From: Lachnospiraceae bacterium UBA4292
Lineage (GTDB): Bacteria > Bacillota > Clostridia > Lachnospirales > Lachnospiraceae
Assembly (NCBI GenBank): GCA_002395865.1
Contig: DGVE01000181.1
Coordinates: 1 to 12,198, forward strand
Reading direction: 5' to 3'
Length of the DNA: 12,198 nt
In this document: positions 5,578 through 12,198 of the stretch, one piece after another
How the letters are laid out: every line of letters begins with the position of its first letter
Position numbering within the stretch: the first letter of the stretch is position 1
The notes under the pieces: generated by a model
The model's database searches: none
What the model saw: the letters and a program-made list of their open reading frames with translations, nothing else
What the model was told of the DNA's origin: nothing
Translations under genes and position numbers: made by a program

Positions 5578-5606
5578 TTGAATTATAGTTTGGGATGTTG
5601 TAAAAT
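5578..5606 (+). promoter_or_regulatory. Probable sigma-A promoter for the 5641 lipoprotein gene
   Basis: TTGAAT (5578-5583) and TAAAAT (5601-5606) are separated by exactly 17 bases. Transcription would begin around 5613, leaving a leader of roughly 28 bases containing CGGAGG (5627-5632). The position supports the TTG at 5641 as the translation start and rules against an upstream TTG at 5578, which would lie inside the -35 box. It is divergent from the rqcH promoter, with about 42 bases between the two -35 boxes. Identified by eye. Confidence 0.65.
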
Positions 5607-5640
5607 TACAAAAGTGATTGATGATACGGAGGTTATTGCA

Positions 5641-7596
5641 TTGAAGATCAAAAGATTTGCGGGTGTAACGATAGCCTGCGTGATGGGACTTACGGGACTG
5701 ACCGGCTGTGACTTGTTGGACACTGACAAAGCCGGCACATCTTCCGGGGAGACGATACAGCCGAAGACCGAACCGGGTGAGAGCAACACGCAGACAGAAA
5801 CGCAGACCGAGCCCGGTGAGATCGATACAAAGTCCGAAACGCCGACCGAACCCATCGGACCTGTGACCGATCCGGTGGAATTCGATTACGGCATGGCTTT
5901 TTATTCAAATGGCGGAAGAATCATCCACCACGGCGGGTACACTTATTTCGTGCAGGCCGGGCTTTTAAACGACGGATCGGAGAACGGACAGGCCTATTCT
6001 GAGAACATCTACAGGATAAGCGATGCGCAGGATGCTGCGGCGGAGCTTGTTTCGTATGTGCCATCTTATATGGCCGATGGCGTGGATCAGACCACTGTTT
6101 TCTATATGATGGGCTATGAAGACCGCCTGTATTTTGTAAGAAGAGGCTGCTACGGCAATTTGTATATCTGCAGCATGGACCTGAATACGGGGGCCATAAA
6201 GGATCTGGAGGAGCTACCCGGAGATAACACTTCAGTCGTAGCCTGCGACGGTGAGATGGCGATCATCGTCTGTAAAGTATACACAGAATCCGACGACAAG
6301 TATTCTTTTTTTGAGTTCGATATGGCTTCGGGTGAGCTTCGTGAGTTTGATCCGCAGTATCCGAAGGCCGATGACTGTTTTAATATGATCTACGGACTGA
6401 GCGGGAGCCGCATATATTATGCGCAGATACCGGATACTTCCGAGGATAAGGGCTATATTTTCAGCTGCGATTACTCCGGAGAAGATGTCGTGGAGTACGG
6501 CAGTGTCCGGCTCGATACCCGCAACATGATCTGTCTTGACGATTATTTTATATATTCAATGGAGGATGAGCTCTTCGTAAAAGATGCCCTGACCGGTAAA
6601 GAACTGATAACAGTTGATGAATACAGGGATAAACTGGACAGTTTTTATATCTATAACGGAAAGCTCTGGTATATTGACGGCAAAAAGCTCGGCACCATTG
6701 ACCTGACGACGGGTGAAGATAAAATCTTATTCGATGATACGAGATACAGCTTTTACCTCGGCTTCGGCGATGGATGGGTGTTCATAAGCGACGATTCGGG
6801 CTTTGACACCAGAAGGGTCAGACCCGATGCGACCAAGGCGCCGGATGATTACCTCGCGGATGAGGGGATCTACGAGGATAAAAAGGAGGGCGACTGGATA
6901 TACAGGGAGTACCCGAACTTCACAATGATAGTGGGATACGAAGGAGAGGCTTCTGTAGCCGAGGTGCCGAAGGAGATAAACGGCAGACAGGTGCTCGGCG
7001 TTTCCCTTTGGATATACAAGAATAAGAGTCTGAAGACACTGACGATACCGGAGGGAGTGATATCGATCTACAATGTAGAGTGCAGGACCGTGACCACACT
7101 TAATATCCCCGCTTCACTGCGGCTTATGACGATGAGGGGCTTTAAGAATACGATCAATCTGGCCGAAGGCGCGACGATCAATTTCGCCGGAACAAAGGCG
7201 CAGTGGCAGGAGATCGAAGATATCTCGACGTCACTGTATGGCGATGTGTCCACGGATACGAGCGGCACGGCAGGCGCAACGGTGCTCTGCTCTGACGGCA
7301 GCTGGGGCATTCACGTGACGGTGGACGCGAACGGCAACGCGCAGGAGAGGGTACTGTGCACCAAGGCCACGCTGGCGGAGGCACTCAGGGAAGCCAAGAG
7401 TGTCTCGGTAAATACAAGATATGAGGGCGATAAGGTAGTATCTTACATCTACCGCGTTGGTGTTACCGTGCCCGACAGCGCCGCCGGACAGTACTGGTCG
7501 GTCTATGTAAATGACAAGCTCGTTCCCGACGGAACGTATGATGACCGCGCGGTAAATGACGGCGATGTCATAAGGGTAGTTATAGAGGGAAAGTAG
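5641..7596 (+). CDS. Multidomain surface lipoprotein: propeller-like, BspA-type repeats, DUF4430-like C-terminus
   Basis: The 651-residue product is predicted to be exported and lipid-anchored. The TTG start is set by CGGAGG at 5627-5632, eight bases upstream, and by the signal peptide that follows (KIKRFAG, a hydrophobic core, lipobox LTGC with C23). Residues about 27-80 are a Thr/Glu/Pro linker with degenerate TEPGE repeats, probably a flexible stalk. Residues about 80-410 contain recurring short strands ending in aromatic residues, such as LYFVRRG, RIYYAQIPD and LWYIDGKKLGTIDLTTGE, resembling the beta-propeller of DUF5050-type clostridial proteins. Residues about 430-525 resemble BspA-type leucine-rich repeats (EVPKEINGRQVLGV, LKTLTIPEGV, TLNIPASL, then the family-typical NFAGTKAQWQEI). 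Residues about 575-651 resemble a DUF4430/transcobalamin-like domain (TLAEALREA, QYWSVYVNDKLV, VNDGDVIRVVIEG). Such proteins are usually surface binding or adhesion proteins; no ligand can be named. Confidence 0.8.
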   Translation: MKIKRFAGVTIACVMGLTGLTGCDLLDTDKAGTSSGETIQPKTEPGESNTQTETQTEPGEIDTKSETPTEPIGPVTDPVEFDYGMAFYSNGGRIIHHGGYTYFVQAGLLNDGSENGQAYSENIYRISDAQDAAAELVSYVPSYMADGVDQTTVFYMMGYEDRLYFVRRGCYGNLYICSMDLNTGAIKDLEELPGDNTSVVACDGEMAIIVCKVYTESDDKYSFFEFDMASGELREFDPQYPKADDCFNMIYGLSGSRIYYAQIPDTSEDKGYIFSCDYSGEDVVEYGSVRLDTRNMICLDDYFIYSMEDELFVKDALTGKELITVDEYRDKLDSFYIYNGKLWYIDGKKLGTIDLTTGEDKILFDDTRYSFYLGFGDGWVFISDDSGFDTRRVRPDATKAPDDYLADEGIYEDKKEGDWIYREYPNFTMIVGYEGEASVAEVPKEINGRQVLGVSLWIYKNKSLKTLTIPEGVISIYNVECRTVTTLNIPASLRLMTMRGFKNTINLAEGATINFAGTKAQWQEIEDISTSLYGDVSTDTSGTAGATVLCSDGSWGIHVTVDANGNAQERVLCTKATLAEALREAKSVSVNTRYEGDKVVSYIYRVGVTVPDSAAGQYWSVYVNDKLVPDGTYDDRAVNDGDVIRVVIEGK

Positions 7597-7599
7597 GAG

Positions 7600-7645
7600 C
7601 CATGAAGAAGACATTTCACCACCGTCATCGGCGGCTTCTTCATGG
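7600..7645. repeat. 11-bp perfect inverted repeat (hairpin) after the lipoprotein gene
   Basis: CCATGAAGAAG (7600-7610) and CTTCTTCATGG (7635-7645) are exact reverse complements. Inside the 24-base loop a second small stem can form: CCACCG at 7619-7624 against CGGCGG at 7629-7634, with one mismatch and a TCAT loop. The structure starts four bases after the lipoprotein stop and includes the ATG of the small frame at 7602. No T-run follows, so it is not a standard intrinsic terminator. It may be an mRNA-stabilising hairpin, a translational control element, or a by-product of complementary Lys-Lys and Phe-Phe-Met coding. Confidence 0.7.
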
Positions 7646-7689
7646 GCTGCGCGGTGCTGGGGTTTGTAATGATAATGATGACGCATTAA
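7602..7689 (+). pseudogene. Tiny membrane-protein frame with apparent one-base frameshift
   Basis: An ATG at 7602 follows AGGAG (7595-7599) after only two bases. Read straight through, it gives a 32-residue basic, histidine-rich peptide ending at 7700 that looks unlike a protein. If one base is skipped in the TTT at 7614-7616, the frame gives 28 residues starting MKKTFTTVIGGFFMG and ending GFVMIMMTH, stopping at TAA 7687-7689. That is a credible single-span membrane peptide with a basic N-terminus. The in-frame upstream stop in the hydrophobic frame (TGA 7603-7605), with no ATG before residue 14, means it cannot start in that frame alone. It could be a decayed gene, a sequencing error in a short T-run, or a real recoding event. 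No family is recognised. Confidence 0.4.
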
Positions 7690-7715
7690 AAGATAATTAA
7701 AAAACGGAGGTAATT

Positions 7716-8894
7716 ATGTCAGTCGATTCTTCTTTGTACACACACGACGCGGATAAGGCGGCGCTCGACGCGCTGAAGGCCATACCGGGCTTCACACAGG
7801 TCATGAAGGCCCTGATGAAGTTCTGGAACGAGAAGCAGTTCAAGCTTGTAAATATGTCCACGAACCTTAAGCTGGGCGAAACCCAGCTGAAGAAGTATTA
7901 CGATATGCTTCCGCCCATCTGCGAGAAGCTGGGCATAGCCGTGCCGGAGCTCTACATGACTCTGGACGTTCGCCCCAATGCCTATACCTACGGCGACACG
8001 GAGCCCTTCATCGTGGTAACCTCGGGCCTTTTTGAGACCATGCCCGACGATCTCATAGCGTCGGTGTTGGCTCACGAGTGCGGCCATATCGCATGCCGCC
8101 ACACGCTGTACAGGACTATGGGAAGCATACTTTTAAGCGGTGCGGCAGCGCTCATCAGCGGACTCGGGAGCATAGCCCTGCTGCCCATTCAGGTGGCATT
8201 CTCATACTGGATGAGGTGCAGCGAATTCTCCGCCGACCGCGCGGCGATCGTCTGCGACGGCGGCGCCGACAAGGTCATCAGGACCTGCATGCATTTCGCA
8301 GGCTATAACAAGGCTCTCGGTACCGAGGCAAATGTGGACGCTTTTCTCGAGCAGGCAGCAGAGTACCGCGATATGATAATGGGCTCCGCATGGAACAAGA
8401 CTCTCGAGTTCATGATGTTCCAGCATAACGATCACCCCTTGAACGCAGTGCGTGCCTATGAGGCGAGGGAGTGGGCAAACGGCGAGCGTTTCTCCCAGAT
8501 ACTCGAATACCTGAACACCCCGAACGCAGGCGGCTCCGTGAACTGGTTCAAGGAGAAGGCATATCTCAAGATGGCTCTCGAACATCCCGCCGAGATCATG
8601 ATAGGCCACGACGGTAAATATTTCGTAGGCAAGAACTATCTCGATGTATTCGGTGATCTTCGCGCCATGGGATACTCAAATGTAAATGTGGTCGAGAACC
8701 CGCGACAGAGCTTCTTTGACACCGGCTCCGATGTTCCGATCTTCGGCAGGCTCGGACGCGACCTCGATTCGGCCATTTTCGGCAACAAAAAGAGCGGCAC
8801 CGTGACGAAGGTAACCATCGGAGGCAGGGACGATTTCGGCGAGCACGACTGGTTCAGACCCGAGGTTGAGATAGTGATATATTATGCGGGGTGA
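7716..8894 (+). CDS. M48-family zinc metalloprotease with C-terminal accessory domain
   Basis: A 392-residue zinc peptidase of the HtpX/Ste24-like M48 class. The zinc-binding HExxH is HECGH (H120, E121, H124), and the third ligand is probably E170 in EFSADRAA, the second M48 signature. Upstream, AYTYGDTEPFIVVTSGLFETM is the typical edge-strand region. No signal peptide or N-terminal membrane anchor is visible. The only strongly hydrophobic stretch is residues 137-162, between the two metal-site motifs, as in membrane M48 enzymes, so it may be cytosolic or associated with the inner face of the membrane. Residues about 285-392 form an extra domain (GYSNVNVVENPRQSF, then GTVTKVTIGG and EVEIVIYYAG) that recalls the PASTA-like C-terminal modules of other clostridial proteins. 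That link is inference. The start is set by GGAGG at 7706-7710. Substrates are unknown. It is the last GC-rich gene before the AT-rich segment. Confidence 0.9.
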   Translation: MSVDSSLYTHDADKAALDALKAIPGFTQVMKALMKFWNEKQFKLVNMSTNLKLGETQLKKYYDMLPPICEKLGIAVPELYMTLDVRPNAYTYGDTEPFIVVTSGLFETMPDDLIASVLAHECGHIACRHTLYRTMGSILLSGAAALISGLGSIALLPIQVAFSYWMRCSEFSADRAAIVCDGGADKVIRTCMHFAGYNKALGTEANVDAFLEQAAEYRDMIMGSAWNKTLEFMMFQHNDHPLNAVRAYEAREWANGERFSQILEYLNTPNAGGSVNWFKEKAYLKMALEHPAEIMIGHDGKYFVGKNYLDVFGDLRAMGYSNVNVVENPRQSFFDTGSDVPIFGRLGRDLDSAIFGNKKSGTVTKVTIGGRDDFGEHDWFRPEVEIVIYYAG

Positions 8895-8901
8895 GAGGTA
8901 C

Positions 8902-8943
8902 ATGCGACGAACTATCAATGTTGATATTACAGCTTTGGTTTAA
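8902..8943 (+). other. 13-codon open frame at the composition boundary
   Basis: Eight bases after the protease stop lies ATG (8902) with GAGAGG (8893-8898) just upstream; the frame encodes MRRTINVDITALV and ends at TAA 8941-8943. It falls exactly where the base composition changes. It may be the 5' remnant of a chromosomal gene cut by insertion of the AT-rich segment, a short leader peptide, or chance. No conserved family is recognised. Confidence 0.25.
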
Positions 8944-8953
8944 CAGCTATATT

Positions 8954-8958
8954 GGGGG
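8954..8958 (+). promoter_or_regulatory. Ribosome binding site of the MORC-like ATPase gene
   Basis: GGGGG lies seven bases before the ATG at 8966 and fixes the start of the GHKL ATPase gene. No convincing promoter was found in the 71 bases between the protease stop and this start, so the pair may be read through from upstream or use a non-standard promoter. Confidence 0.5.
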
Positions 8959-8965
8959 ATAATAC

Positions 8966-10447
8966 ATGGGGAGAAAGATTGAAAACACGCCATCACCAAG
9001 CATATTGATGAATTCGATGAGATCAATCGGGTATTCATTTAAAACTGCATTGGCTGATATTGTAGATAATTCTATTTCTGCAGGTGCTAAAAATGTGTTT
9101 ATTTCTGTTCCGATAAATGATGATGACATTTTTATATCCATTCTCGACGACGGAAAAGGTATGACAAGAGATGAGCTGCTGAATGCTATGAAATATGGAA
9201 GTGACAGAGAGTATTCATCTTCTGATCTTGGCAGATTTGGAATAGGAATGAAATCCGCCTCTCTTTCTCAATGCAGAATTTTAACAGTTATTTCTAAAAT
9301 GTATAGTACAACATCTGCTTTTCGATGGGATCTGGACTCAGTAATTCAGGATAGAAAGTGGGATTGTATTGAATTGGATGAATCTGAAATAAATGATGTT
9401 CCCTGTATAAATGATCTTTATAAATTGAATATGGGAACTCTTGTGGTTTGGCAGAATTTTGATATAGCGTACAAGAAAAGTAATGGCAAGGTCAGAGAAT
9501 ACATTTCTGAAGAAGTCGCTGATGCCGAGAACCATTTAAGGCTTGTTTTTCATCGGTTTTTGTCAAATAGGTTCAGACAATTTAATATATATATAAACAA
9601 CGATTTAATTGACCCTTTCGATCCGTTTCTGGAAGATCATCCGAAAACTGATACCAAAAAGGTAAGTGAAATTACTGTTGAAAATGATGTCATTAGAGTT
9701 CAACCATACATACTTCCTCATATGTCAGATTTAAACGATGCAGATATAGGGAAGCTTGGTGGAATAGATGCATTAAGGAATGATCAGGGTTTTTATATCT
9801 ACCGTAATGATCGTTTAATAATCTATGGAAAATGGTTTAGATTGTCATCTTCAAGTGTTAGTCCGGAATTATTGAAATATGGAAGAATTAAAGTGGATAT
9901 ACCGAATTCACTGGATGATATATGGGATATAGACATTAAGAAACAAAATGCTACTATTCCACGACATATTTTAAATTACTTCAAGAAAATAGTTTCGGAT
10001 GTATGTTCAAGGTCGAAGGAAAAAACGACGAAGAGAGTTCGCTTATCTTTGGAACAGGATGACAACAGAATATGGAATAAGGCATTGGATAAGAATCAAA
10101 AGGAAAAATTTTATATCAATAAAGATTCTAAGTTTATCCGAAGTTTTCTTGATGAATTCGACGACAGAGACAAAGGTAAAATTCTGAATTTTATTGAAGC
10201 TATTTCTGCTACTTTACCACTAGACGATATTTATAATTCGATTTGTAATAAAAACAATTCAAATGAAATTGAGGATGAGCAGTTTGAAGCTATCGTGATG
10301 GAAGGAGTTACACAGTTTAAAAAAATAAAAGGTATAATTCAAAAGGATAATGATGAAGTATTTAGGCTGTTGGCTTGTTATGAACCATTCAATAATGAGA
10401 GAGTCTTTAATCGTATCAAGGAGATTATAGCAGATGAAAACACGTGA
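8966..10447 (+). CDS. MORC/MutL-like GHKL ATPase of a Z1-associated defence module
   Basis: The 493-residue cytosolic ATPase belongs to the prokaryotic MORC-like branch of the GHKL (gyrase/Hsp90/MutL) superfamily. Such proteins dimerise on ATP binding and are predicted to act as DNA clamps or chromatin-type remodelers in restriction-like systems. The Bergerat fold is complete: N-box ALADIVDNSISAGA (metal-binding N35), G1 DDGKGM (62-66) and G2 GRFGIGMKSAS (89-99). The position of the general base, usually Glu four residues before the Asn, is Asp (D31). A transducer-like S5 domain follows, with GFYIYRNDRLIIYG (275-288) and a conserved lysine in DIKKQNATIP (K325 or K326) that should touch the ATP phosphate. 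The C-terminus (about 340-493) is charged, helical and unrecognised. Base composition is far more AT-rich than the upstream genes. The last 14 bases overlap the Z1 helicase gene. It corresponds to the MutL-like member of Mza-type modules. Confidence 0.88.
   Translation: MGRKIENTPSPSILMNSMRSIGYSFKTALADIVDNSISAGAKNVFISVPINDDDIFISILDDGKGMTRDELLNAMKYGSDREYSSSDLGRFGIGMKSASLSQCRILTVISKMYSTTSAFRWDLDSVIQDRKWDCIELDESEINDVPCINDLYKLNMGTLVVWQNFDIAYKKSNGKVREYISEEVADAENHLRLVFHRFLSNRFRQFNIYINNDLIDPFDPFLEDHPKTDTKKVSEITVENDVIRVQPYILPHMSDLNDADIGKLGGIDALRNDQGFYIYRNDRLIIYGKWFRLSSSSVSPELLKYGRIKVDIPNSLDDIWDIDIKKQNATIPRHILNYFKKIVSDVCSRSKEKTTKRVRLSLEQDDNRIWNKALDKNQKEKFYINKDSKFIRSFLDEFDDRDKGKILNFIEAISATLPLDDIYNSICNKNNSNEIEDEQFEAIVMEGVTQFKKIKGIIQKDNDEVFRLLACYEPFNNERVFNRIKEIIADENT
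10418..10423 (+). promoter_or_regulatory. Ribosome binding site of the Z1 helicase gene
   Basis: AAGGAG lies ten bases before the ATG at 10434 and within the end of the ATPase gene. It supports 10434 as the helicase start and a translationally coupled pair. Confidence 0.6.
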
Positions 10448-12198
10448 GGAAATATTTGATATCTATGTTACTCAGTTTTCCAGTTATAAGACAATTATGA
10501 GTATTAATAATCCTCTTTTTTGCCCGAATGATCAAAGTATTATGGAATCCATAATGCAAACTGAGGAATTATTTTCTAAATATTTGAATGAAATTGTCTT
10601 GGACGAAGCGGAAAAGGATTTGGTGGTCAAAAAGATTAAATCGGTATTCTCTATTTATCAAGAAGAAGGAGATGCGTTATTAGGTGATTATCAACATGAT
10701 TATAAGTGGTATGAAAACTATTTGAATGAAGGTAATGATGAGTACTACTGGAGTCGCTATAAGAATTATTTGACTGCACAAAAGCATTTTCCTCCCGAGG
10801 TAATACGTGTATTGGAAAATGATACAATGAAAAATATAATGTCATATATCGGAAATCCAAATGATGAAAACGACTTTTCTGTACGAGGGCTGGTTGTTGG
10901 AGATGTACAGTCCGGTAAAACCTCGAATTATATTGGCTTGGTTACAAAGGCAGCTGATGCAGGGTATAGGGTCATTTTTGTTTTGACTGGTACAATAGAA
11001 AGTTTAAGGAAGCAGACTCAGATTCGCGTTGAAGAAGGATTTGTAGGATATGATGTTGCTATGGCTACAGACGTCGGGGTTGGTCGTGGTGACAAAACAC
11101 CAAAGTCTTTTACTAGCCGTACAAAGGACTTTGTTGCTGATGATGATCAGAATACAAATATCAAAATCAGTAACAATCCGTGCGAGCCGATGATTTTTGT
11201 TGTTAAAAAGAATGCCAGTGTCCTTAACAAGCTATATACTTCACTGAAGAATATAAACACAACGAAACAGTATCAAAAGATAAAAGTTCCTATGCTTTTG
11301 ATTGATGATGAAGCAGATAACGCAAGTATTAATACTCACAAACCAGAAGATGATCCAACCAGGATAAATAAGTATATTCGCAATATCCTTTCTTTGTTTT
11401 CGAAGAATAGTTATGTGGGGTTTACTGCGACACCGTTTGCAAATGTTTTTATTTGTTATAACAGCGAAGATGAGATGCTTAAAGATGATCTTTTTCCCAG
11501 AGATTTTATCTATTCCTTAAAAGCTCCATCAAATTATTGTGGATCAAAAAAATACTTCACGGAGTCAAATAATAATATCTGTCTGATCAATGATGGTGAT
11601 GAAGGACTTTTTCCGATGAAGCATAAGAAAGAATGGTCAGGAGATAGGCTCTTTGCTTCCTTGTATGAAGCAATAAACACATTTCTGATATCGAACGCAA
11701 TCAGAGACTTGCGTGAAAGAAATACCAATATTAACACTCATAGATCTATGCTGATTAATATGACACGTTTTACCAAAGTTCAGCTGGTTATCAAGAGAAT
11801 AGTTGAGGATTATTATATTTCAGTCAGGAATGCTGTTAAGCAGACGCACCGGCTTGACCCGGAATATGCGTTAACAAATCCAATTATCCGAAGTCTCAAA
11901 GATACTTTCGATAAGGAGTATAGCTCTATTATTTCAAATGGTAGTATTATTGAATGGGAGGTAGTAAGACAAAATCTGTTTCAAGCAATCAAGGACATCG
12001 ATATAGTTGTTGTCAACTCATCAAAACAATCAGCTAAGCTTAATTATGAGGATCATAAAGAGACCGGCTTACGCGTTATCGCGATTGGCGGTCTTGCTTT
12101 GTCACGCGGATTAACTTTGGAAGGATTATGCGTTAGTTATTTTTACAGAAACACTTCCACATTTGATGTTTTGATGCAGATGGGAAGATGGTTTGGAT
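10434..12198 (+). CDS. Z1-type superfamily II helicase/ATPase, 3' end missing
   Basis: The frame is open from ATG 10434 to the window edge (588 full codons). Family members are commonly around 900 residues, so about two thirds is probably visible. Residues 1-140 are a charged, probably helical N-terminal part. The superfamily II motor follows: Walker A GDVQSGKTSN (G156 to T163), motif Ia-like VLTGTIESLRKQ, Walker B IDDEAD (290-295, DExD-like), motif III FTATPFANVF (330-339), then a long insertion. The motif V region is GGLALSRGLTLEG (552-564), and the motif VI arginine finger is QMGRWFG (R585). The GDVQSGKT, TATPFAN and LSRGLTLEG wording is characteristic of Z1-domain helicases paired with MORC-like ATPases. 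A role in translocating on or remodelling foreign DNA is inferred from the family. It overlaps the ATPase gene by 14 bases and shares its AT-rich composition. All visible motor motifs are intact. Confidence 0.92.
   Translation, partial: MKTREEIFDIYVTQFSSYKTIMSINNPLFCPNDQSIMESIMQTEELFSKYLNEIVLDEAEKDLVVKKIKSVFSIYQEEGDALLGDYQHDYKWYENYLNEGNDEYYWSRYKNYLTAQKHFPPEVIRVLENDTMKNIMSYIGNPNDENDFSVRGLVVGDVQSGKTSNYIGLVTKAADAGYRVIFVLTGTIESLRKQTQIRVEEGFVGYDVAMATDVGVGRGDKTPKSFTSRTKDFVADDDQNTNIKISNNPCEPMIFVVKKNASVLNKLYTSLKNINTTKQYQKIKVPMLLIDDEADNASINTHKPEDDPTRINKYIRNILSLFSKNSYVGFTATPFANVFICYNSEDEMLKDDLFPRDFIYSLKAPSNYCGSKKYFTESNNNICLINDGDEGLFPMKHKKEWSGDRLFASLYEAINTFLISNAIRDLRERNTNINTHRSMLINMTRFTKVQLVIKRIVEDYYISVRNAVKQTHRLDPEYALTNPIIRSLKDTFDKEYSSIISNGSIIEWEVVRQNLFQAIKDIDIVVVNSSKQSAKLNYEDHKETGLRVIAIGGLALSRGLTLEGLCVSYFYRNTSTFDVLMQMGRWFG

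Follow-up and report, generated by a model that had tools for sequence, protein, structure and literature searches.

The window analysed here is the whole of a 12,198-nucleotide stretch of contig DGVE01000181.1 from Lachnospiraceae bacterium UBA4292. Its right-hand end carries two genes of the MORC/Mza kind, both on the forward strand. The first (positions 8966-10447) encodes a MORC-type, MzaB-like GHKL ATPase of 493 amino acids, with a GHKL domain, an S5-like domain and a mostly helical C-terminal part. The second is a helicase reading frame (10434-12198) interrupted by the contig end. The initial annotation had described a 14-base overlap of the two genes and a window stopping within the helicase; the overlap is confirmed at 10434-10447, and the helicase frame indeed runs into the end of the contig. 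An overlap of the same length is observed in two relatives, L007 and L008. Given this overlap, the two genes may be translationally coupled.

The assignment of the first gene as a full GHKL ATPase of MORC type is borne out by conserved residues, the S5 motif and the fold. The alignment contains 81 MORC rows, five of which are gapped in the ATP-binding region. In each of the 76 rows with letters, the residues D31, D34, N35, D61, G63, G65, G89, R90, G92 and G94 are present. D31 (window positions 9056-9058) occupies the general-base position and is thus aspartate in all these bacterial proteins, whereas MORC3 has glutamate. The motif GhXhhpXXRhl, defined for the S5 domain of MORC proteins (PMC2292703), is seen as GFYIYRNDRLI at residues 275-285 and occurs in 73 of the 81 rows. 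The remaining eight are four contig-end fragments of 84-174 amino acids and four full-length proteins (L043, L049, L068, L086). Shuffling the window protein produced the motif in 77 of 20,000 cases. The fold is MORC-like, the fold test barely covering the C-terminal part beyond approximately residue 362.

The helicase matches its family profile with 180 bits (cut-off 25) over profile positions 1-169 of 228, where the contig end stops the match. The QMGRWFG wording noted earlier lies within DVLMQMGRWFG, which corresponds to the motif DThhQXuRhFG. Valine replaces threonine in 24 of the 80 aligned helicases, including that of the window.

The loci of relatives (L007-L086) were analysed with our own profiles. 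Of these 80 loci, 75 keep the four core genes in their order, and the relatives carry DUF4420, MORC and AIPR genes. The Mza system, reportedly described by Gao et al. in 2020, is said to consist of the genes mzaABCDE. The PADLOC profiles of MzaB (212.3 bits) and MzaC (316.8 bits) match the window, and those of MzaD and MzaE match genes of the nearest relative, L007; this supports the earlier suggestion that the window holds the left half of an Mza-type module. Unlike Mza, relatives have a C5 methylase beside the core, and PADLOC found no MzaA-like (sigma-factor-like) gene among the six upstream open reading frames (ORFs) of the window, the MzaA model being unspecific. Indeed, this model also matches in 10 of 14 control genomes and is therefore a poor marker; its sole match in the genome of the window (C42:119-358) spans just profile positions 590-669. 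From 65 loci we collected 133 complete upstream ORFs of at least 100 amino acids lying at most 2.6 kb from the core, and 98 of them were scanned. MzaA does not appear among the 25 most frequent families, each with 3 to 5 members, out of 221 that matched; this result leaves room for MzaA matches in up to three ORFs. Pfam revealed no common upstream partner in these 98 ORFs, helix-turn-helix domains being the most frequent (5/98).

The described MORC system (PMC2292703) shares with these loci a GhXhhpXXRhl ATPase, a superfamily II helicase with DThhQXuRhFG, a restriction endonuclease-fold nuclease with E-D-ExK, a frequent cytosine methylase and Vsr, and AIPR appears in its figure legend. In the features compared, the only difference found is the threonine-to-valine replacement in the helicase. 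Miller et al. 2022 (PMC9523054) count the methylase among the core genes of their putative 'type II' defence system, whereas here the four-gene core is constant and the methylase varies in family and position. CglI/NgoAVII restriction-modification comprises three genes and uses a PLD-B3 nuclease (PMC4267653), whereas the loci analysed here contain DUF4420, MORC and AIPR. The PLD-superfamily nuclease with a B3 domain that defines this class was not found in L007, where Pfam gave neither domain in eight consecutive proteins, from MORC to the AAA gene beyond an HNH gene. One more system has an EcoRII-like nuclease, and the available portion of its description names neither MORC nor AIPR. Of the three nearest relatives that possess Vsr, two have an HNH-endonuclease-like gene after it (L007:17492-18229, just below the Pfam cut-off, and L008:17506-18237).

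The C5 methylase adjoins the core in relatives, where four families and two single types are exchanged on either side and either strand. Among 52 loci with both flanks readable, only L044 has no C5 methylase match. For family M1, the nearest solved structure is the CpG enzyme M.MpeI (182.8 bits), followed by M.HhaI (43). The profile alignment with M.MpeI spans the full protein length (266.8 bits), but the target-recognition region aligns poorly. In M.MpeI, CpG is read by F302, E305 and A323, situated in two loops (PMC10899764). M1 has an invariant block T-x-TTKQDR-x-P-xx-G in this region in all 17 aligned sequences (19 M1 rows), and thus probably has one target throughout. CpG self-marking by M1, suggested by nearness to M.MpeI, was set aside as unsupported, since the recognition loops align unconvincingly and M1 has its own invariant block there.

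Several observations weigh against the favoured reading, a probable restriction-modification-like system of this kind. The methylase is not stably linked to the core, which is unexpected for a matched pair. Aspartate instead of glutamate at the general base means that fast ATP turnover by MORC is not assured, and turnover may be slow or switch-like. Finally, the downstream genes of the window copy are unseen, and this copy may be genuinely shortened in the bacterium. The contig stops within the helicase, and no other component was found in the metagenome-assembled genome (MAG): a DNA query built from L007 matched the contig end only, with nothing past the helicase end, and the AIPR profile had no match. 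However, the MAG is 71.7% complete and consists of 231 contigs, so that these negatives reflect gaps in the data and do not prove that the genes are absent. Moreover, both frames are open throughout their visible extent, the aligned catalytic motifs are intact, and the core is retained in most relatives. Truncation is considered very improbable. The window MORC is identical to the representative of a protein cluster that is listed on two contigs, the longest having 48,260 bases.

One possibility, which we consider unlikely, is that the core itself reads 5-methylcytosine, instead of recognising that one particular sequence lacks a mark. AIPR would then sense DNA modification somewhat like SspE or GmrSD-family proteins, and any C5 methylase could be a partner. 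The L007 AIPR (13679-15775) is modelled with an endonuclease-fold-like domain lacking the catalytic lysine and a ParB/sulfiredoxin-like domain, the structural matches being weak. Abortive infection through AIPR seems decidedly unlikely. It is suggested by the name of the family, by the PADLOC AbiU match to the L007 protein (81.5 bits), and by PMC3506569, where AbiU1/AIPR is tied to restriction systems and an N-terminal HEPN toxin domain is stated.

The region before the MORC gene (5578-8894) contains an M48 peptidase gene and a lipoprotein-like gene whose ThiS and DUF4430 matches fall short of their cut-offs. Neither has a match in the stretches fetched from two congeners, G003 and G002; in these, Rqc2 is directly followed by a xylulokinase-like gene. 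The M48 gene, tried as a marker of the insertion site, had no match in the three congeners searched, and the Rqc2-like gene was used instead; Rqc2 had no match in congener G001. The 71-base gap 5' of the MORC gene (8895-8965, forward strand) contains one weak sigma-70-like match at 8926-8953 (9/12), and a promoter here is possible. Positions 8600-9100 contain two promoter-like matches (mean of 0.6 in shuffles) and no terminator-like match in the same scan.

Thus the window is one further, incomplete example of a known MORC/Mza-type kind. In eukaryotes, the DNA on which MORC proteins act is methylated and silenced. Their bacterial relatives share operons with cytosine methylases, and the available text of the cited literature does not describe how self is told from non-self. 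A constant core with an exchanged methylase makes this question directly testable: either every partner methylase has one and the same target site, or the core recognises methylation in a generic way.
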